This document shows positions 4,386 to 61,035 of a DNA stretch of 64,000 nt, piece after piece. A program made the translations under genes and the position numbers. Numbering within the stretch: position 1 is the stretch's first letter; each line of letters opens with the position of its first letter. Source of the DNA: Acanthochromis polyacanthus (taxonomy: Eukaryota > Chordata > Actinopteri > Pomacentridae); NCBI RefSeq assembly GCF_021347895.1, contig NC_067126.1, positions 34,112,482 through 34,176,481 of the forward strand, given 5' to 3'. The notes beneath the pieces were generated by a model. That model had not been told where the DNA came from, ran no database searches, and saw only the letters and a program-made list of their open reading frames with translations.

Positions 4386-4569
4386 GTTAATGTTAAACAA
4401 AGTATCAACATTTATCCCCATGATGTAGGACTGCCACCACTCGGGTACTCGTTTTATTAGTTATAATAGTAACATTGTGAAGCGTTTTATTTGTTGAACG
4501 TTATAAACATTCCTGCTTTTTTCATTCTGCTCTTAACATGCTGAACTGAGAAACTGTAATATCTGCAAG

Positions 4570-6210
<1,641 letters not shown>

Positions 6211-10214: not shown

Positions 10215-12931
10215 TCATTCTCTGTGCGATTTGTCCTCATAGACTGCATAACTTTGAGGTTGTGGAGGGGTCACCTATATGGGTTAGAAATACAAGTGAT
10301 GTAAATGCATAGAAAAGAAGAAAAAAAAAGCAAAAAACAGGACAGGAAATTTAAGGTTGTGCTGAAATACTTCCTAAGAAATGAGAACAGGTTTTACGTA
10401 AGTTCCTCTAACCTCTCCTCCTAACGGAACATGATACAGGACCCAGGTCATGGTGTTGCTGTTGTACAGGTTCTCATCTGCAGTCCTGCTCCACTGTCCT
10501 CTACAAAGACAACATGTAGACCAATAATGACACCACACTGCATTTTATTATTGAAACTATTTAGTGGTTATCTATATAATAATACACAGGGAAAGTATTC
10601 ACAGATGGGAGCACAAGAAAGTTATATTTTTTATTACATTTTCTAAGTTTCAAAAAAGCTGCTTGAAGTAAAAATACTGCCTTGAAAAATCCTACTAAAG
10701 TAAAAACGAAGCAGTATTATCAACTAAGTACACTACCAGTTAAATGTTTGGACACACCTTCTCATTCAGTGCTTTTTATTTATTTTTATTATTTTCTAGA
10801 TTGTAGATTAATACTGAAGATTAGCACTTTTTTGTTTACTATGTAATTCCATATGCATTTTTTATATTCCTGATGTCTTCAGTATTTATAATGTATAAAA
10901 TAAATTGAATTAAAACTTTTGATTGATAGTGTATGTTGAATGTTTCAGAGGAAAAAATACGCTTTCTGCAGAAGACCACGATGTAATTTTATTACTACAG
11001 TTGTTGGGCTGCAGCACACAGTACATTTCATGTGAATCTGCTGATTATTTTCTTGATTAACCCGTTCTGTCAAAAACACCCATTACATCTGACTTCCTCA
11101 AATAGCTTCTTAGGTCAAAATGAGTTTAAAAATTCCCAGATGTACAGAATACTTTTATACCAATGTTTTCTCACGTCTTTCTTATCTCTCACAATCTCCT
11201 TTTTTAACCATTTGACCCCTTCTCTGTCATTTCCTGGTTTATTCTAGATAGTGTGAATTTGTCGCCCTCTGCCTTTCCTTCCTGTCTCTCCTGTCCCTCT
11301 CTCCATCTCTGCCCTCTGTAGATGACGCCTACACTTTTACTCCTCCGTGTTTTCATCTCTGTTAAAATGGTATTTAGATGTGAAGGGAAGCGCTGTTTAA
11401 AATGTTTTGGATGTTAATGTAGTGAGTTACGATCAAATAATTAATTTACTGGTAATAGTTGATATTTAGACCGTTCTTCTTCCTGTTTTCACATCCTGTT
11501 TGTGAAGATGACATTTATAAACATACTGAATTGATCTGCTGACGGAGAAAGAGCAATTTTAAGCCACTTCCATGTTTACATGCTTCCTATGGGTCAACTC
11601 CTAAACACCACATTCCTTTTTGTTATGCTATTCAACACACAAATGTATTACTTCCATAGTAATGACTGATGATATTTATATCATAATTTGAAATATTATT
11701 GATGCATTCTGTCTTAGCTGGCAAAAAATCTTGTGTAAATTAGACAAATTTGTCTTAATGACAAGAAACTCTTATAACTTGAAAAATATCTTAGCAAAAG
11801 TAGAAGCTTCTCACAATACACCTTCAAATTATGAGCAACTATTTTTTTTCTTGTTGCGGGAGCTGCAGAAACATTTTTAATGGCCAACATCTCGGCTCGT
11901 CAAAGCAGGAAGAGCACAGTTATTGTTAGTGATACTACACGCATTTTGGTTTGGAGACAGGCTTTAGTATTGTGCACACTCACTGACGTCTCACTGGAGC
12001 CCTGGCACTTTATGGGTGTCAATGTTGTTAAAACTTAGCCTAACTGCACTGACACATCAAAATATCCTTTGTGAAATGTGTTTATGTGCTGCTGAAACAT
12101 GATCTCAGACATGTGATAGAAATATTTATATAGAAAAAATAGATAACACTGCAGCTAACTCAGCTAACCATATTGTTAGCTTAAAACAAAGTGTATAAAG
12201 ATACAAAGCTCTACAATGTTAATAGGCTACGTTTCTTTTTTTTAACGATAAATGAAGATGATCTCTCACCTGTAGATGATGAGAACTAATATGGTGCAGC
12301 ACAGAAGTGGTCCGATAACAGATGTGAGTGCCAAATACCTTGACGAGTGGATATCTGCATGAAATAAACAATGAATTAAATTAAGTAGCATGTGGCGTGT
12401 TATGTGATATGTAGAAATTATTAGATTGCTTTGTGCTTTACCTACCTTTGTGGTTCCCAGACACAATTAAATTCCACTTGATAGTGTGTAAGCCAAAAAA
12501 GTCAGTTACATTACATGTATACAGTCCTTCATCCTCAGGTTGATCATCAATAATACTCAGCTTTGTAGGTAAGTTATGGTCTATTGTCACTCTGTTAGAG
12601 GAGAAATTTGATTGTGTCTGATTGTGAAAGATGCTATGTATGTAAGAAGATCCGCCTTTTATCCAGCTGATTTGTGTGACATTTCTGTCGGATGTGTTGC
12701 AGATGAACTCGGCTAATCCTCCTCTGGACACCAGCATGTCCCTGTAGTCAACTGTAAGAGAAGAAGCTTGAAGGAAACAACCAATAAACATGAAAAGAAC
12801 TCTGTACTTACATCTAAATGAGAGCATGCATCACAAAGAGAAATCAGCTCTGTACCTGCAAAGACATGCCACATCCCAGAGAGCTGAATGAAGAGCAGCG
12901 CTACTTGGTTCAGGCTAGACATGATGTCCAT
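10215..12931 (-). CDS. Single-IgV transmembrane protein, gene A
   Basis: Five coding exons on the minus strand join in phase: 12931-12856, 12751-12446, 12354-12270, 10500-10398 and 10274-10215 (intron phases 1, 1, 2, 0), giving 209 residues. Residues 1-25 are a signal peptide (starting MDIMSSLNQV). A V-type Ig domain follows with the Cys pair C43/C105, W55 and the DEGLYTC motif, and five N-glycosylation sequons. Residues 134-155 form a membrane helix (LALTSVIGPLLCCTILVLII). The roughly 54-residue tail has five tyrosines and ends YAVYEDKSHRE; none fits a strict ITIM or ITSM. All introns start GT and end AG; exon 4 rests on phase and splice sites only. Its neighbour is gene B, a tandem paralogue. 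I infer a cell-surface immune-type receptor or ligand. The family within the Ig superfamily is not assigned. Confidence 0.75.
10731..10931. mobile_element. Tc1-derived MITE (201 bp) in intron 3 of gene A
   Basis: Terminal inverted repeats CACTACCAGTTAAATGTTTG and, on the other end in complement, CACTATCAATCAAAAGTTTT are flanked by TA on both sides (10729-10730, 10932-10933). There is no coding capacity; the middle is AT-rich. It is a deletion derivative of the Tc1 family whose longer relative begins at about 28722 (CACTACCAGTCAAAGGTTTG). Confidence 0.8.
10932..12269. other. Rest of intron 3 of gene A
   Basis: AT-rich, with short pyrimidine-rich pieces. No further exon that keeps phase was found between 10933 and 12269, so exon 3 is taken to splice directly to 10500. 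Confidence 0.5.
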
Positions 12932-13872
12932 CAGAGGAAGACAAAGTGGAGTCTGACTAAACTGAAGTTTTACATGTGTTTTGTAGCGGGGGTGACAAGA
13001 AGCGGAAGTGGTTAGTCGAAGTTTAAAAAACGCATTTAATGGAGCATAAAATGAAGTCAAAATCAAATCGGCAGTGTGATTTATTGTTTGTTAATTGATA
13101 ATACCCTGACAATGATTTTATTGGTCTTAATCATTTAATGAACTCAATTATAAACTGTACATGAGGTGACACAACAGGAAAAGCACTTCTAGTGGTGAAG
13201 ACAGCTTAACCGCGTAGTGTGAACCTGCTGCTGAGCATGCTCACAGTGTGTCAAATATTTAACATAATCAGGTCTCAGTGAGCTGTACGTGCCTGCGGGA
13301 GTCAACAGCTTGTATGGCTCAGAAGACACTGTTACACAAACCGGATCTGACTTCCGACCGATGTTAACCATCAAGTTTTACACCATTTTGTGCGCCTGTA
13401 TATTCACAGTATAAACCTCATTCACTCCTTGTGTAAAGCAGCAGAGCAGCTCACATTTGTCTACTCTGCTGGACTAACTGAAAATAAAACTGTACATGAA
13501 AAGTAAATAGTTTAAAACATAAGAGACTTTCATATTACGAAGCTCTACGATGGCCAGGCCCCACTTTTGGGTTGATTTGAGGTAACTTTAATGTCATTAT
13601 GACAAATATTGTTCGGAAATTATTTTGAAAATCAGAACGACATTCACTGTGCAATGCTACTGTTAAAACATTCATGCATAAGAACATATTAAAACCATAA
13701 ATATAAAAGATAAGTAAAGATAAGGTATCCTTTTGTCCGCCTGTCCTCCCTCTGTTGGCCTTCCTTTTTAATACCTGCTTTGAAAGTGACAAAATAAAAC
13801 AGAACGTCCATCAAATTTCTTCTCCTTCTTGTCCATGTATCTTTGAAGCTGTCATTTGAACGTCTCTTCAGC
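12932..13872. other. Intergenic spacer between Ig genes B and A
   Basis: Contains the 5' flank of gene A (similar to the flank of gene B for several tens of bases, for example the GAAGTGGTTAGT word) and the 3' flank of gene B. No TATA box is evident. Confidence 0.5.
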
Positions 13873-16800
13873 TCAGAAGTGACCATAGATTGAATTCAGC
13901 CTCTCTTTGTACTGACTCCTGTTGTTATTTGTCCTGCTGCCTGTGCCGCCCTGATGGAAGGGCACATATGAAGACATGGAGTCAAATTAAGGCAGAAAAT
14001 TAAACAGAAAAACTCAGAAGTGGTAAAGATGACAACGTTCTTCTCACCTCTCCTCCAGACTGGTCCTGGTCTGGATCCTGATTCCTTGTCCTGGTCCTAA
14101 ACTTTCTGAAGAGATAAAGCAGTAATCACTAATGACACCTGACTTCTTAGCATTTCAGGTACTTTACTCTATGAGCCTAAATAAGTAAAAGTTCCACACA
14201 TAGAAAAAGCCCCATGGATCTTATTGCAACAAAAGAAATGTGGTTAATAACTGACCAATAATTTGAAACATTTGTAGCTCTGATTCTTACTTTTTTCCTA
14301 CCTTCCTACCTTTTTTTTTTTTTACTATTTTTTTTTACAAAACAGAAGAAACCATTACAGATGAAAGCAAACACATTCACAATAGCACACAACATCAACT
14401 ACCAAGTAACAGCACATTTAACATTGGAAAATTATACTCCTCATTAAAGTGCATGTACACATTCATCCCCATAATATTTTCACACTGTATGTCCAAGTTT
14501 ATGTATTTGTTTTTAATTGTGGTTATTATAGTAATGGGCTTGCAATTACTAACATTCTGTTGAAAATGTTTACTGCAGTAATGTGTTCACTGGTAAAACA
14601 GAAAATGATGTAATCACTCAGCCCACTGCATCAACTGTCAGTTACTAACGGTCATTCTGTTTGCATGATGCTGCATGACATTTACATAATGACTTTTGTG
14701 CATCTTTTCGTTCTCATATCTCTTTTCATGTTGTGACGCTGCAGTTAGACACTTTTGAGCTTCCGTATGCATCTGCAGTGGAGAAACATGTACAAGTTCT
14801 GCATTGCCAGGAGCATAATCAGTATTTCAAGTACATTTGTGCGGAAACATGGTCTGCTAAAGCTGCTTAAATACTTCTTTGATGCATATATGTGTTTTAT
14901 GTTGAATTATATTGTTTTAGAGACATAGTTCATAGATAGAACATCTGAGTGCCATTTCAAGACTTGCTGTGTGGAAATGCAGTGCTCCAAGAGCAGGAAA
15001 TCAAACCTTAGCACGAATAAAAATGTGCTCTTTGCACAGAATGCTGATAAAGTATGGACTCAGATGTTAATCTCAATTAGCATCTTCCACCCTTTTCTGA
15101 GCAAAGCTGTCAAAAATGACATAACACAATCAAATTCACTGTTTAAAAACAGCTCTGTAAAAAAATTTCAAAAAACTTGTAGCAAGAGTGAGGGGAAAAC
15201 ACATTAAAAACAACGGAATATTGTAATATTCAAAACTGGCAAACCTGTGAAGAAAATGCCAACTATCTATAAAATTTTAACACATTTAAGTACACTACAA
15301 TTGTGTAATATTATTTCTGTGCTATTTAACCTCTTAGGACCTGATGTCCACATATGTGGACATTTTTTCCCCCAAAGAGATCGTATTGTTCATAATAATG
15401 ACAATAATAAAAAATAATAACAATAATAAAAATTGGAATATTACCAACAATAATTATAACAACAATGCAAATAAAATATTACATATAATTTAAATATAAA
15501 AATATAAGAAACACACATAAGATTTTCTAATGTGTGATAATGAGACCTCAGGTCTCAAGAGGTTAAATAAATAAATTTGAAAATACTATTTGTTTAAAAA
15601 AATCCAGATATTTGATGCTGATATTATTCACAGTTTTGGTCTGTTTTTTGTTTACTTGTTTGTTTGTTTTTTACATCCACATTTATACATTTTTTTCTGT
15701 GATTTTCTTAGATATTTGATTAGATTAATTAGATATTATCTGTAAGTATAAACAAAACAGGAAAAAGTAAAGTAACTGTAAAAAGATTTAAAATATTCCT
15801 GTCCTTAATATACAGAAGATTCTTTTAAATTAACAAAAAAATCTGTCAAAATTATATATATTTTTGAAAATTTAAATACAGCAAAACAGTGGAATTTTAT
15901 GTTTGATTGTTGTAAATCAAAGAATTACTATTATAAGAAATGCAGATTTTTTTTGAGTGCAAATTTTTTACAGTTTATTTTATTTATTTTTTTATAAAGG
16001 GTTAACATCTGAATGATTTTTTTATTTGTTATTTATTGTGATTTTACAAGTTATTACCTGCAATTTAACAACAGTATAATGAAAAGAGTATTAAATACCA
16101 GTGTATTATTGTTAAAGTTAGAGTTAAAAGCTATTTTTTTAGCAATTTTTTCTTTATTTTTTTTTACATTTTTGACCGTAGCATCTTAACTGTTTCAGCT
16201 ATATGTGTGAATGCAGTCTTGTGACAAAGAGATTGAGAAACCCAGAGATGATTCAGAAACTTGCTGTTTAAGTCAGTAAAAATTAAAGCTGATGCTACTG
16301 CTGTCCTTTTTTTATGGTTTGTAATTTTCTAATAAAGGGCTTAGATTTGATGTAGTTTGAGTCTAAACAGCCAATAAATAACCAGCTCATGTAATTTTTT
16401 GAAATAAAAACTCCCCAAGGTTTGCTCCAAAAAACAAGAAAACAGACAAAGTCAATAGCTTCAGTGTCCTCGGTGCTAGCTGTGACCTTGAGCTACTTTC
16501 CATTGCCACTTGTCATTGCCACCTTTTCAGCAACTTGTGAATTTCCTCTCACTAGGGCACCACCTACTTACATTAAAATAAAAAAAAGCTTAGACTGAAA
16601 GTGCAGACAAAGGACATTTAAAGGCCAACGGGTTGCAAAGGAATGATTTTCTTTTGTTAAATTAAAGTTCAGACTTTGTTTGTGGTGCTCACACTAAAGA
16701 TATTTAAAATATTCAACACAGCCAGTCTCTTTAAAATCTTTCATAGAATCTATGATAAAGTCAGAAATGATGCTTTGTTTTTCAATTGTGGGTAAACGTT

Positions 16801-17605
16801 CAACGTAGGGAGACACGGAATCACAACGTCACTGTGCTTTAAAATCAAATCAGCCATCCCAGTACTGACAACCGCTTTGTAACCGAATAGAAAAACGTTC
16901 ATATTTACAAATGTTGAACTAAAAGGAACTAAAGGGCATCGCTCACCTGCAAAGACAGAGCGCTGACAACATGATGCCACACAGAAGAAATGAAATCGAA
17001 GAAGCCAGGATGTATACCAAATGCAGTGGATGGATAGCTGCATGAAATCAACAGTGAATTAAATTAAATAGCATGTGGTGTGATGTGTAGAAATGATTAG
17101 CCTTGCTTTGTGCTTTACCAACCTGCGTTCCCAGACACAGTTAATTTCCACTTGATAGTGTGTAAGCCAAAAAAGTCAGTTACATTACATGTATAAAATC
17201 CTTCATCCTCAGGTTGAGCATCAATAATACTCAGCTTTTTAGGTAAGTTATGGTCTATTGTCACTCTGTTAGAGGAGAAATTTGATTGTGTCTGATTGTG
17301 AAAGATGCTATGTGTGTAAGAAGATCCGCCTTTTATCCAGCTGATTTGTGTGACATTTCTGTCGGATGTGTTGCAGATGAACTCGGCTAATCCTCCTCTG
17401 GACACCAGCATGTCCCTGTAGTCAACTGTAAGAGAAGAAGCTTGAAGGAAACAACCAATAAACATGAAAAGAACTCTGTACTTACATCTAAATGAGAGCA
17501 TGCATCACAAAGAGAAATCAGCTCTGTACCTGCAAAGACATGCCACATCCCAGAGAGCTGAATGAAGAGCAGCGCTACTTGGTTCAGGCTAGACATGATG
17601 TCCAT
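13873..17605 (-). CDS. Single-IgV transmembrane protein, gene B (paralogue of gene A)
   Basis: Five exons on the minus strand join in phase: 17605-17530, 17425-17123, 17037-16947, 14105-14048 and 13950-13873 (intron phases 1, 1, 2, 0), giving 201 residues. Signal peptide and IgV domain differ from gene A at only a handful of positions (for example T for I in SSYTHSIF, K for T in LPKKLS, F for L in DEGFYTC) and by one codon near the end of exon 2. The membrane exon (about residues 130-158, HLVYILASSISFLLCGIMLS) is only distantly alignable to that of A. The tail is unrelated: basic, then acidic (RKFRTRTRNQDPDQDQSGGE), ending NSIYGHF with two tyrosines. Both genes point the same way with B upstream, so this is a head-to-tail duplication. 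Function as in gene A is inferred only. Confidence 0.75.
15326..15565. mobile_element. piggyBac-like MITE (240 bp) with TTAA ends
   Basis: Lies in intron 3 of gene B. It begins TTAACCTCTTAGGACCTGA and ends, as inverted repeat, TCAGGTCTCAAGAGGTTAA. TTAA is the target site of piggyBac-type transposons. A short internal palindrome (TCCACATATGTGGA) follows the left end; the middle is an AT-rich filler without coding capacity. Confidence 0.8.
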
Positions 17606-19212
17606 CAGACAGAGGAAGACAAAGTGGAGCTTCACGTTGCGCTTGTACATGTATTTGTGGAGGAGGCGCTGAGAAAAGGAAGTGGTTAGTTGCTGTTCTG
17701 CTCAGCTCAGAACTAACTATTGTAGGATAATACATGAAGTTATGTAAAAATCTTATCTATAATTTCTCAGTTCAACAAAGAAATACCGACAACCAAATGA
17801 AAATCCTTTGTGAAAATGAGCTAACAATATGATCACAGAACAAACATCTTTCCCTCTGAAACTTCAGTGGCTGATGTGACAAACTGAAATGTAAAATGCA
17901 CCTACATAAATGACAATCTTAAACGGCAGGAAAACCGCTCCTGCATAGTGCTCTAAACACTTCACCCACAATGTGTGAATCCAGGGTGTTACTGGTATGT
18001 GTGATTTTACAGTTGCACAACATGTTGGCTACTTCATTTCTTATGCGATAGACATGATTAACGGGTACCGATGACATTTATCTGATGTCGCTCAGCGTGT
18101 GATAGAAGCACCTTTTGTTTTATGCTGTATCGTGATGGGGAAAGCCACAAATCTTAAACACCGTTTGATGCTTTTAACAAAAAACGTTCACATGAAGTCA
18201 GAAAATCAGGGTTCTGCTGTGTGCATGGTTTGCACTCGCATTGTCATGACAGAATACAGCAGAGTCATTTGTTGTGGTATAAGTGGCAGTCCATTTGTCA
18301 TCCACTAAAGGTACTGATATTGTCCCCAAACACTGCTTTCCCTTGTTTCCCTTAGTATGCAGGTGATATGACACATTTTAGAGACCATATGGACATGAGC
18401 AGATGCTTAACTGACAGCTCCCTGACTTTACTTTTAGCTGCATTGCATCTGTTCTTCATGAATCTACGACACAAATCCTCAGCTGTCATAAAACTACACT
18501 ATATACAATGATATCTGAGCAATGTAACACACAAATAGCATAAATGAGCAAAAGGTTTTAGGTTGTACACCAGTAGATATACAGCACAGTGTACAGAATA
18601 ATTCTAAGAAATCACTTTTTTAAAAATTTGCATAATTCACTGTGGATTTTAGAGTTTGCTCCCGTCACCCACACTTGGTTGTGCAGAAGTCTGATAAGAA
18701 ACCTCAAATTGTGTTCCCTAGTGCCGTCTTGACAAGAATAAGGAAGTTGTTCAGACTGATTCTTGCAACTTCTCTACAAAGCACTTTATCAGTGTGTCGC
18801 CACTGTTTTTTTATACAATATAGTGATACTTACGTTCTGTTACTAAATTTCACATCAAATTGATTGTAGTCCCGTCATAAGACTTCAGAGGGCGCCCTCC
18901 ACTCTAGTCAATCCCTGGCTTCCGGTGCCCTTTATTTAGTTTTGATGGTACTTTTGTGAAGAAAAAAAAGTCAGATGTCTCCTTGCTCGAAGAAATCGAA
19001 TATTATTATTTTTACAAAACACCTCATCTAGAATTACCTGACTGTAAATTACACATGGAAAGTAGTGCAGATGAAAATATTAGAGAAAATCCTAATTTAT
19101 CTTAATCTGTATAATGTTTTTATAATCAGGGTTTGTTGATAAACCTACATTCTGACTTTGAACTACTGCACACTTCTAAATTGTGACTCAATTGTGATTA
19201 AATTGTTCATAG
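17606..19212. other. 5' flank of Ig gene B and non-coding sequence
   Basis: No coding exon recognised. A palindromic GAGGGCGCCCTC lies near 18889-18900. Confidence 0.5.
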
Positions 19213-20426: not shown

Positions 20427-22064
<1,638 letters not shown>

Positions 22065-23193
22065 ATTCTATTCACCACTCATAGTTTCAATAAATAACAT
22101 TGCCAAGGTGTAAAAACACTTATTGTTTGGACAGTTCACAACAGCATTGACTTGAACATTATCAACAATCTTAAATTTAAAAAAAAAATCATTATAAATG
22201 TACAGATATATCATATGCAGGTGTGAGTTTAGGTTACTATTTCTCAGGTTGTGGCATTTAATGCACACAGGGCAGCAAAATGGGTCCTGTTTCATTCAGC
22301 TTGGAGCAATTACATTTTTGTGAGCTCATTTTGTTCTTTGAAATCTAAAATTACACAGTTGAGCTTGTAAAAGTCAATGTTCCACTTTATTAACTGTTGA
22401 AAGATTGGCATAGACAGAACTAATGCAGGTTAATGTAACAGTTCTGCAATAAATACTGCTTCCAGAAAGATTTCTGTTTCCAGTTTTTGTTGAAAATATT
22501 TTCAAAATGTGTTGTTAGAACTGTATGATCATTTTAGAGGATACAGTTTGAGGTGTTGTGTCACTGTGGAGTGTTTTAACTGTGTTTCTATTATTTACTG
22601 TTGCCTCACCCACGTGCTCTGGAACTTAAAGAATGTTCACCATCCAGGAGTTTTGCAATTCTAAGCATTTTTGATGATTGTACATTATATTAATGACAAG
22701 TTTAAGAAATAAAAACAAGCAAAAGATATTTATTAATAGTCAGCAACACAGTCAGACATTTTTATGGGGTGGCCAGGCTTAAACTGATAGAAACTAATAT
22801 CTCAAATCTCTCTAGGCTGAACAGTTACATTTTTTCGATACATTTATTGATCCCTTATGCAGGTATGACATTTAGAAATACACCTTGAGAACACCAAGCT
22901 TTTTCATTTCTGAAATTTGGAATAGTTAGTCAAAGTTACACTCTTTTCACTTCTATTTACTCCACTTCTATGAGTACAGCCAAAGCCCTCTAACAGGCTT
23001 CACTAGTGGTTGTGTGAGGTGGACAGAAGTTTGCCAAGACTGTAGCCTAAAGAGGCCAAGAGCATCTTGGAGTCACCTCTTGGCTCTACATCAGTTAATA
23101 TTTAAGGCAAAGATAACATTTTTGGTAAACATAACGTTTGTAGCTGGACTATTACTGGAAGCCTTCAAGTCTTTTCATTTTACAGTGTAAACA
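22065..23193. other. Non-coding, flank of a decayed transposon
   Basis: AT-rich; no exon recognised. The part next to 23194 may include the unmapped 3' end of the minus-strand element whose transposase ends there. Confidence 0.4.
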
Positions 23194-26142: not shown

Positions 26143-27074
26143 TAAAGTTTGTTGAAATACTAAAATTCGGTTTTGGTTTTTGTGTGCCACCCCAAGATTT
26201 TTAGTGGCTCCATCTGGCCCCCTCATAATAAACATCTGGAAGTATACTCACACTTTTAGCTCGATGACAGGGAGTACAGTCTTTCTGAAAGATACACTTA
26301 TTTGGCAGTTTGAAATGGTCCTTAATGGTTGGCAGCAGCTTTTCCTCCAGTATAGCCAGGTATCCAGTGGTATTTAAGGACCCATCTACAAACTGCAGGC
26401 GACCTACTCCATGATAGGAAATGCAGCCCCATATCAACTGACTGGTTGGGAATCTCACCTCCAAACAATCTGGATCTCCACTCTGTCCATCAGCCACACG
26501 GAGGATGAATCTCCTCTCATCCGAGAAAATGACAGACTTCCAGTGCTCAGGCGTCCACTCCACATGCTCCTTGCACCAGTTTAGCCGCACCTTTTTTATT
26601 TTTTTCTGTGAGGAGGGGCTTCTTCTTCTTCTTCTTCTTAGGGCATCTGCTCCTCAGGAGGCGTCTCCTGACCGTCACTGCACTCGCCACCACTCCCGTA
26701 TGTTCCTCCCATTCGCGTTTGAGCTCGAAGGAAGACGCGCTGCGGTTTTTGAGGAACAGGCGCTTCAGAACTCGGTCTTGTTTAGCCGTAGACACGCGTT
26801 TGCGTCCCGTTCCTTGTTTCCTCGCTGCAGAGCCGGTGTTCTTGAGTTTGGAGAGAAATCTGCTCACTGTCGACTGATTGCAAGACACTCTTTTGGCGAT
26901 GTGACGGGTGGAGCATCTCTCCTCGTGTAGAGCAGCAATAGCAGTCTTTTTCTCTTGCGTCAACTGCGCGTAACTGGCCATCCTGACCAAAGCAAAGGCT
27001 GCAACAGCTGTGCAATGAAAGTGCATCTCATCTTAAAGTGCCATAGTAGCAACTCCAGCAGCTTTATAGCTGTA

Positions 27075-33646: not shown

Positions 33647-33956
33647 AAATGCAAAGAAAGATTCACGTTACAGTTCTATTTCTTTCATTTCCACAACAAC
33701 TTGCTTAGCTGGTGTGAGTGTATGTATGTGTGTGTAGCCGTGTGTGTGTGCAGATGACATCAGCTTTTGGAAAACATATCACTCAAGCTGCTCTTGGAAA
33801 CATTTCATTTTTTTCTATTAATATATTTTCTTATTTCGGATGTGGAAATGAATAAGGAAAAAAGCCTGTAACAATGAAGAGGGTGGTCAAGGTTTGGAAT
33901 GTGGATGTCAAATCTTGATTGTAATTCATTTGATCCATTTTCAACAACTCTGTTCT

Positions 33957-34535
33957 GGGTCAAAATATAATTGCGGGACTTTTTGTACCATAGTTGACAG
34001 TTGTTTTGCTGTTTTCAGGCCTAAAATCAACATGGCCGCCTATAACCAAATACCACATGACATTTTTACAGAAAGATTCTTCTAAATATTATATATACAA
34101 TTGAGCAAAATTAAAATTGAAAGCTATTTATAAAGATATTATTGTAAGTATTAAACCTGTTGACATGCCTTAAATCCACACTTGACTCACACATTACTTT
34201 ATATCAAATAACTCAGAAAGCCTTGGAGTCTTTCAGTCTTTTCTTCAGGAGGAAATGACATCAACCTTGAAAAGTGTTTTTGCAATGGGCAACTTAGTTG
34301 AAAGTTATTTCCCAGACAGATACAAGTCACTATTTTACATACAAAATTTGATATATTGCCAAAAAATAAATATTTGTAATGAATATCTGAACTTAATAAA
34401 AAGAACATAATCAAAACTGTTTTTGAATAAACTCATTTTATTATTGTGTAACTAAGTAGAAGGTGGTCATTAGCTGACATTTTAGTGATATCCAGTCATT
34501 AAATGATTGTTTCCATAATAAATAATTATGGAATT
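33957..34535 (-). repeat. Interspersed 0.6-0.7 kb repeat, copy 1
   Basis: Inverse orientation to the copies at 37106 and 44560. It starts GGGTCAAAATATAATTG. Shared blocks include GGTTATAGGCGGCCAT (complement ATGGCCGCCTATAACC), the AAGAATCTTTCTG region, GGAAATGACATCA and GAAGGTGGT. It lacks the far end seen in the other copies. No coding capacity. Confidence 0.75.
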
Positions 34536-34539
34536 TGGA

Positions 34540-36281
<1,742 letters not shown>

Positions 36282-36954: not shown

Positions 36955-38016
36955 ATTCGTGTTACACATATGTTTATTTCATTTCTCGGACAACTTATTT
37001 AGATTGTTTTGGAGTTCTTCTGTCCCCTAGTGGCGAAAAATAAACTAACACAGCTTTAACCATCTAAAACAAGCCAATTTAAAAATACTAGATGATTTAA
37101 TAACTGGGTCAATATATATTATATTTGAGGGACTTTTGAAGTCCATGGGATATATCTTTCATACATTTTTATTAAAAGTAAAAAAGAAACTAATTTTTTA
37201 ATATTCATGATGTTCATTACTTTACAAATTACATAATTATTTATTGTGGAAACAATCACTTATTCAAAAAAAATGACTAGATATCACTAAAATGTCAACT
37301 AAATAACCATCCAAAGTTAATAACAACCACCTTCTAAATACCTAAACAATAATAAAATGAGCTTATTCAGAAGTAGTTTTGATTGTGTTCTTTTTATTAA
37401 CTATCATGACAGATATTTCTTTCTTGGCAGTATACTAAATTTTATACAGTCAATAACAAATTGTATCTGTGTCCAAGAAATCACCTTCAACTAAGTTATC
37501 CATTACAAAAACGCCTCTCAAGGAAGTGTGTTCATTCCAGATCACATGACCTGCTCCACATGATGTCATTTCCTCCTGTAGAAAAGGCTGAAAGACTCCA
37601 AGGCTTTCTGAGTTATTTAATATAAAGTAGTCAACATGTTCACTACAACATCTTTAGAAATAACTTTCAATTTCAATTTTGCTCAATTGTATATACAATA
37701 TTTAGAAGAATCTTTGTGTGAAAATGCCATGTGGTGTTTGGTTATAGGCGGCCATCAAAACATCAAAAATATCCACCATGATGTAAAAAGTCCCACAATT
37801 ACATATTGATCCAACTGGTTTTACTTAGAACTTACATTAAATGTAATGATTACTGCTGGCAGGAATTACTATATCTGGAATTACTGCTGTAAACTGAAGA
37901 TGGATCACAGTAGTAACGGATCTACACACAAAAAGCCAGAGAATATCCAACCCAACAGCTAACTTCAGTGCAAAAACGCATTTATTCACACACAATTTAG
38001 CCTGCACACCTTCTTG
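36955..38016. repeat. Tandem duplication upstream of fstl1, unit 1 (interrupted)
   Basis: Minus the inserted repeat at 37106-37812 this unit is about 355 bp and matches unit 2 (38052-38400). Shared blocks: TTTTGGAGTTCTTCTG, CCCCTAGTGGC, AAATAAACTAACACAGC, TTTAACCATCTAAAA, AAGCCAGAGAATATCCAACC and TTCAGTGCAAAAA. Confidence 0.85.
37106..37812 (+). repeat. Interspersed 0.7 kb repeat, copy 2, inserted in the duplication
   Basis: Starts GGGTCAATATATATTATA and ends (in complement) GGATCAATATGTAATTG, so the termini are inverted repeats. Flanks AACT before and AACT after suggest a short target duplication. Compared with unit 2 of the tandem duplication the insertion point is clean. I infer a non-autonomous DNA transposon; superfamily not assigned. 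Confidence 0.75.

Positions 38017-38754: not shown

Positions 38755-61035
<22,281 letters not shown>

Follow-up and report, generated by a model that had tools for sequence, protein, structure and literature searches.

How do two adjacent receptor genes come to share a nearly identical ligand-binding half and to carry different cytoplasmic tails? The question is raised by two genes of the fish Acanthochromis polyacanthus, found in a stretch of 64,000 nucleotides of DNA (the window).

Gene pair and gradient of identity

The window encodes two tandem IgV receptor genes placed head to tail on the minus strand. Each has five exons, in the order signal peptide, single IgV domain, membrane helix, and two tail exons. 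The exon coordinates, the GT/AG splice sites, and the exon phases (1, 1, 2, 0) were reproduced for both genes, the phases as given in the original prediction. Searches with Pfam matched both proteins to general Ig models only. The features are as follows:

Gene B (upstream), 17605-13873, minus strand: protein of 201 residues
Gene B exon 1, 17530..17605, minus strand: start codon and signal peptide (76 bp, phase 1, 76/76 identical to gene A exon 1)
Gene B exon 2, 17123..17425, minus strand: single IgV domain (exon model; Pfam ig/I-set/V-set on the spliced protein; AlphaFold pLDDT 90.7)
Gene B exon 3, 16947..17037, minus strand: membrane helix (best 20-residue window without charged residue)
Gene B exon 4, 14048..14105, minus strand: first part of tail type B (exon model, tail profile)
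Gene B exon 5, 13873..13950, minus strand: C-terminal YxExxNx[IV]Y motif and stop (exon model, motif, tail profile; end at 13873 read by eye)
Gene A (downstream), 12931-10215, minus strand: protein of 204 residues
Gene A exon 1, 12856..12931, minus strand: start codon and signal peptide (exon model)
Gene A exon 2, 12446..12751, minus strand: single IgV domain (exon model; Pfam ig/I-set/V-set on the spliced protein)
Gene A exon 3, 12270..12354, minus strand: membrane helix (exon model, membrane-window scan)
Gene A exon 4, 10413..10500, minus strand: first part of tail type A (exon model, tail profile)
Gene A exon 5, 10215..10274, minus strand: end of tail type A and stop (exon model, tail profile)

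The search of the 957-Mb assembly (81 contigs) for further copies of the V exon gave two DNA matches and no significant third copy. At the protein level, the next best match of the V exon after the pair had an E-value of 0.065, and searches with the membrane-plus-tail regions retrieved these loci alone (next best E-values of 0.124 and 0.48). The pair is flanked by two Tc1/Sleeping Beauty-type elements (4567-6210 and 20427-22067), which are 98.9% identical, lie in opposite orientation, and have terminal repeats of about 215 bp. The window also includes a further Tc1/Tc3-type transposase fragment (26550-27032, minus strand), a diverged repeat family with copies 68-76% identical (33956-34545, 37105-37813, and 44559-45279), and an open frame with a weak match to ZIP transporters, under the Pfam cut-off (58891-59289).

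We compared the two genes segment by segment with forced pairwise alignments. The 5' flanks are 71% identical (127/179, with 42 gap columns). Exon 1 (76/76) and intron 1 (104/104) are identical, exon 2 matches at 294 of 303 positions (97%; 100% at its start and 95-98% in the remainder), and intron 2 at 77 of 84 (92%). Identity then falls to 65% in the membrane exon (53/82, with 12 gap columns). The values for exons 4 and 5 (69% and 72%) are uninformative, because the global alignments were forced and contain 30 and 191 gap columns, respectively. Hence, the original prediction described the gradient well: a few per cent of differences in exons 1-2 and the intron between them, a lower similarity in intron 2, and a membrane exon that is only loosely alignable. 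It had named uniform identity along the genes as one outcome that would speak against it, and the identity is non-uniform. The longest run without differences takes in the whole first exon and first intron as well as the 5' portion of the V exon, and comprises 311 columns among 750 aligned columns with 70 mismatches. When these mismatches were placed at random 20,000 times, no replicate attained 311 columns and the maximum was 143. The two copies of this identical tract, which we regard as a recent conversion tract, are:

Copy in gene A, about 12641-12951, no strand assigned: 311 identical aligned columns
Copy in gene B, about 17315-17629, no strand assigned: one 4-base indel relative to A

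The first 125 codons of the two genes differ at six codons, all nonsynonymous, and at none of the approximately 78 synonymous sites, although with so few changes this 6:0 ratio is not significant by itself and is only suggestive. An intron, presumed neutral, that is 100% identical between older homologous flanks of around 65-71% identity is the signature left by gene conversion. This process, already proposed for the ligand-binding half by the original prediction, is well supported in the window, and a like contrast is found in other fish species (see below). The two steps in the gradient, 100% and then 92-97%, could correspond to a recent short tract on top of an older, longer one.

Other processes might produce such a gradient. 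If a second, unrelated tail had recently acquired a copied leader and V block through duplication or exon shuffling, one would expect the sharp fall of identity observed at the membrane exon. Yet the homology persists at ~65-71% beyond both ends of the tract, which implies that the tract postdates the pair. Together with the homology of the tails and the presence of both tail classes in many fish families (see below), this makes a recent copy very improbable. Strong purifying selection restricted to the ectodomain could in principle keep old paralogues similar, and the V domain does have cysteines, a tryptophan, and NxT/SNF positions that are invariant across the family. It accounts neither for the 104 identical positions of intron 1 nor for the lack of synonymous differences, and between close species the V domain varies at least as much as the tail (gene B and its Amphiprion relative are 75% identical in V and 90% in the tail). 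We give it practically no credence. Finally, one V region might have been overwritten by the other during assembly. We regard this as scarcely more credible than selection alone, since the edges of the tract carry differences, six codons differ, and many independently assembled fish genomes present a like pattern.

Histories of the V domain and of the tail

To place the pair in its family, we assembled 143 distinct relatives from three protein searches (28, 95, and 97 hits). Those bearing a species label are all from ray-finned fishes, save for stray ferret labels, and six have no species. We take nearly all the labelled relatives to be percomorphs, plus one salmonid (Oncorhynchus nerka). In nr, three Oreochromis clusters additionally bear the ferret label, which we have taken as a mislabelling. 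Six relatives (P0001, P0002, P0003, P0029, P0030, and P0034), in which both tail types are represented, have two tandem V domains. Within the V domain, the mean entropy is 1.53 bits in loops and 1.37 bits in strands, and such a small difference makes no case for a hot binding face.

To class the tails, we used two profiles, each derived from 13 tails; the two kinds are here called A and B after the genes of the window. The class was called by a difference of 5 bits between the two scores, an arbitrary threshold, but the gaps are wide in most rows. A class could be assigned to 43 of the 48 held-out relatives, which came from later searching and had no part in the profiles, leaving 5 without one; the weak or odd rows include P0125 (7.1 versus 0.7 bits) and the aberrant tails of P0101 and P0119. 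The tail of gene A scores 80.2 with the A model and 7.0 with the B model, and that of gene B 71.1 with the B model and 4.8 with the A model, each gene being itself a seed of its own model. Many fish families contain both classes, and 18 species, Acanthochromis among them, have the two together (21 after the third search). The salmonid protein (P0143), which is ~35% identical to the first sequence of the query, has a B-type C-terminus with the twin-tyrosine motif. Tail B would thus be older than the percomorph radiation, which points to an origin of the family before the percomorphs.

The tail exons had been described as unrelated. Compared as families, however, the two tails are distant homologues: hhalign gives a probability of 95.9 (91.5 once the juxtamembrane region is removed) and a score of 43.8, against a maximum of 14.7 in 200 column shuffles. 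Exon shuffling, offered in the original prediction as an alternative to conversion, is therefore not needed, and it is not favoured by the tail tree, in which each class tracks the species across percomorphs.

The trees of the two halves of the protein tell different histories. In the V tree of 85 rows, 35 of type A (12 of 97 rows, unclassed or partial, were dropped, and 95 alignment columns kept), the tail type switches 30 times. It switches once in the tail tree, a result that is partly circular because the labels were defined from the tails. A topology with all A-type V domains in one clade is rejected (p-AU 4e-9), and so is one with the two tails of the window in one clade (p-AU 0.0015); the tail of gene A groups with Stegastes and that of gene B with Amphiprion. 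A quick V tree of 126 rows (46 A rows; 19 of 145 rows dropped) has 40 changes of tail type. This is within the range obtained with shuffled labels (27-45, mean 37.6), and so the V domain retains no trace of the tail type.

The same discordance is seen species by species. The best A-B pair of each of the 18 two-tail species is 77-100% identical in V, 31-100% in the membrane segment, and 19-42% in the tail. The pair of the window has the lowest membrane identity (31%), which suggests that the homogenised block stops earlier here than in most species. In 13 of the 18 species, at least one A-B pair has V domains that are identical or joined with starred support. Among two-tail species, 45 of 63 V domains are nearer to a gene of the other tail type in their own species than to any gene of the same type elsewhere, and this is the case for none of 62 tails; some annotated isoforms are among the rows counted, and a protein with two V domains contributes only its membrane-proximal one. 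Of the 18 exceptions, 15 are from African cichlids, which have many copies and whose sampled species are closely related, 2 from poeciliids, and 1 from Micropterus. Two Etheostoma species illustrate the pattern: A and B are 95-100% identical in V within species and V domains 82-83% between species, whereas the tails of A and B are 29-42% identical within species and those of the same type 88-91% between species. These protein comparisons, from which we infer the conversion tracts beyond the window, show that the ligand-binding half clusters by species, with the 18 exceptions above, and the tail by gene.

Some of this sharing could be produced by splicing instead. If alternative or readthrough splicing joined one ectodomain block to either tail, a V domain that seems shared in another species would be a single exon counted twice. 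The two genes of the window have a common strand and matching phases, and B is the upstream one, so its exons could splice in frame to the tail exons of A. Three predicted models of Etheostoma cragini are in line with this: X1 (tail A) and X3 (tail B) of LOC117952900 are 100% identical in the leader, V, and membrane segment (25+93+36 residues), and X2 carries an A tail on a different ectodomain. The shared ectodomain of X1 and X3 at one locus implies that readthrough splicing also occurs, as far as these models go, and where a single annotated gene contributes several isoforms as rows, some of the identity may come from a shared V exon rather than from conversion. Yet the window has separate leader, V, and membrane exons for each tail, i.e., two V exons. 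Elsewhere, an A and a B protein have different LOC numbers in 14 of the 20 other two-tail species (a tally from names), and in 17 of 18 species the best-matching A and B are distinguishable in at least one of V, membrane segment, and leader. At least one A and one B protein have consecutive LOC numbers in Etheostoma spectabile, Sander vitreus, Notolabrus celidotus, Cyclopterus lumpus, and Poeciliopsis prolifica. Different or consecutive numbers suggest tandem genes as in the window. Hence, we consider splicing an unlikely general explanation, and conversion and readthrough may both be at work.

A paired-receptor reading

We conclude that the two genes are most likely ancient tandem paralogues whose binding half has been homogenised by repeated gene conversion, whose tails have been kept apart, and which would function like paired receptors. 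In this scenario, two old members of a teleost family of single-IgV receptors would have been maintained as a pair. Concerted evolution of the ligand-binding half by repeated conversion is the best-supported cause of the likeness of the V domains, selection would hold the two tails distinct, and readthrough splicing across the pair may contribute to the sharing in some species. Because their V halves are matched, both receptors would see one fast-changing ligand, and the tails would relay different signals, in the fashion of paired receptors and perhaps with opposite (activating versus inhibitory) effects.

The idea of pairing came with the original prediction, and the comparative data support its evolutionary side strongly: these are neighbouring genes with near-identical ligand-binding domains and different cytoplasmic tails. 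Its signalling side fares less well, since the pair in the window does not consist of one ITIM-type member and one with an ITAM or a charged helix. Searches of both tails for ITIM, ITSM, ITAM, YxxM, and NPxY found none, and the best 20-residue membrane window of each protein is devoid of charged residues, as had been noted. In the family, an ITIM-type pattern is present in 9 of 46 A tails and 15 of 87 B tails, and an ITAM in none of the 133. The tails have conserved features of their own: A has a [YF]xV core and an SxAxY motif, and B ends, in the window as in a salmonid, with the invariant twin tyrosines of YxExxNx[IV]Y. With the canonical features tested and unmatched, we class the pair as working like a paired receptor rather than as a proven one. 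More tentatively, and with slightly less than even confidence, we propose a new teleost paired-receptor system, in which the IgV domain would have been re-homogenised independently in many lineages since the early percomorph radiation and the two conserved non-ITIM/ITAM tails would represent new signalling modules whose effects are either opposite or complementary.

Receptor pairs of this kind are viewed as the mark of an arms race, in which pathogens exploit one receptor and its matched twin counteracts them, and the worked examples are mostly mammalian, with ITIM/ITAM tails. Here, an unnamed fish family has its binding half repeatedly matched between two genes across many families and conserves two tails that lack the textbook motifs. 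The family provides numerous independent instances of conversion, as well as two putative signalling modules open to direct test.

Relation to known receptor systems

The database names of the relatives are placeholders or misleading (hemicentin-2-like, myosin light chain kinase), and we found no fitting functional name. The scan of 17 members with NCBIfam gave weak, scattered matches only, and sequence searches of solved structures gave assorted Ig domains only among the best 60 of 114 and of 2217 matches. A search of a phage collection with the exon 1-2 protein had no match, in keeping with the fish origin of the gene. CD200R and its activating relatives are among the closest known systems; the tail of CD200R has an NPxY motif, found in none of the 133 family tails. 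The NITRs have a J-like GxGT motif following the V domain. Only 4 of 133 rows have it close to the end of V, and the V exons of the window end in WNLIVS and WKLTVS. The TIGIT/CD226/nectin group is defined by three motifs, (V/I)(S/T)Q, AX6G, and T(F/Y)P; a related pattern, [VAIT][ST]Q[IVM]xW, is present in 64 of 133 rows. NILT, NITR, and other teleost Ig receptors likewise have clustered V-type genes, a phase-1 V exon, and a phase-0 final tail exon (PMC3022915). NILTs differ in having CX3C/CX6C/CX7C cysteines, where the V exon of the window has two cysteines only, and tails with ITIM or ITAM, where those of the window have neither (PMC3022915).

The closest precedents for the evolutionary pattern come from two other systems. 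In a study of primate Siglec-11 and Siglec-16, the region of the V-set exon groups by species and the downstream region by gene, and gene conversion is inferred in every primate examined (PMC5701461). These are also neighbouring receptor genes, with the same two-tree signature. They have known inhibitory and activating roles and sialic-acid ligands, whereas the fish pair has tails free of known motifs, and its pattern extends over many fish families. In the CEACAM pairs of mammals and Xenopus, conversion is centred on the exon of the ligand-binding N-domain and synonymous differences are absent (PMC2832619, PMC5112662), much like the homogenised ligand-binding exon of the fish pair and its lack of synonymous differences. 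However, CEACAM tails carry ITIM/ITSM and ITAM or ITAM-like motifs that the fish tails lack, and the Xenopus pairs are opposite in orientation, unlike the fish genes. Hence, the process itself is already known from Siglec-11/16 and CEACAM. Literature searches by six LOC numbers retrieved no paper, and in those by topic, judged from listings and the openings of abstracts, we recognised none describing the family. Within that literature, we found no account of this family of fish receptors, of its two tails outside the ITIM/ITAM types, or of the pattern in so wide a range of lineages.
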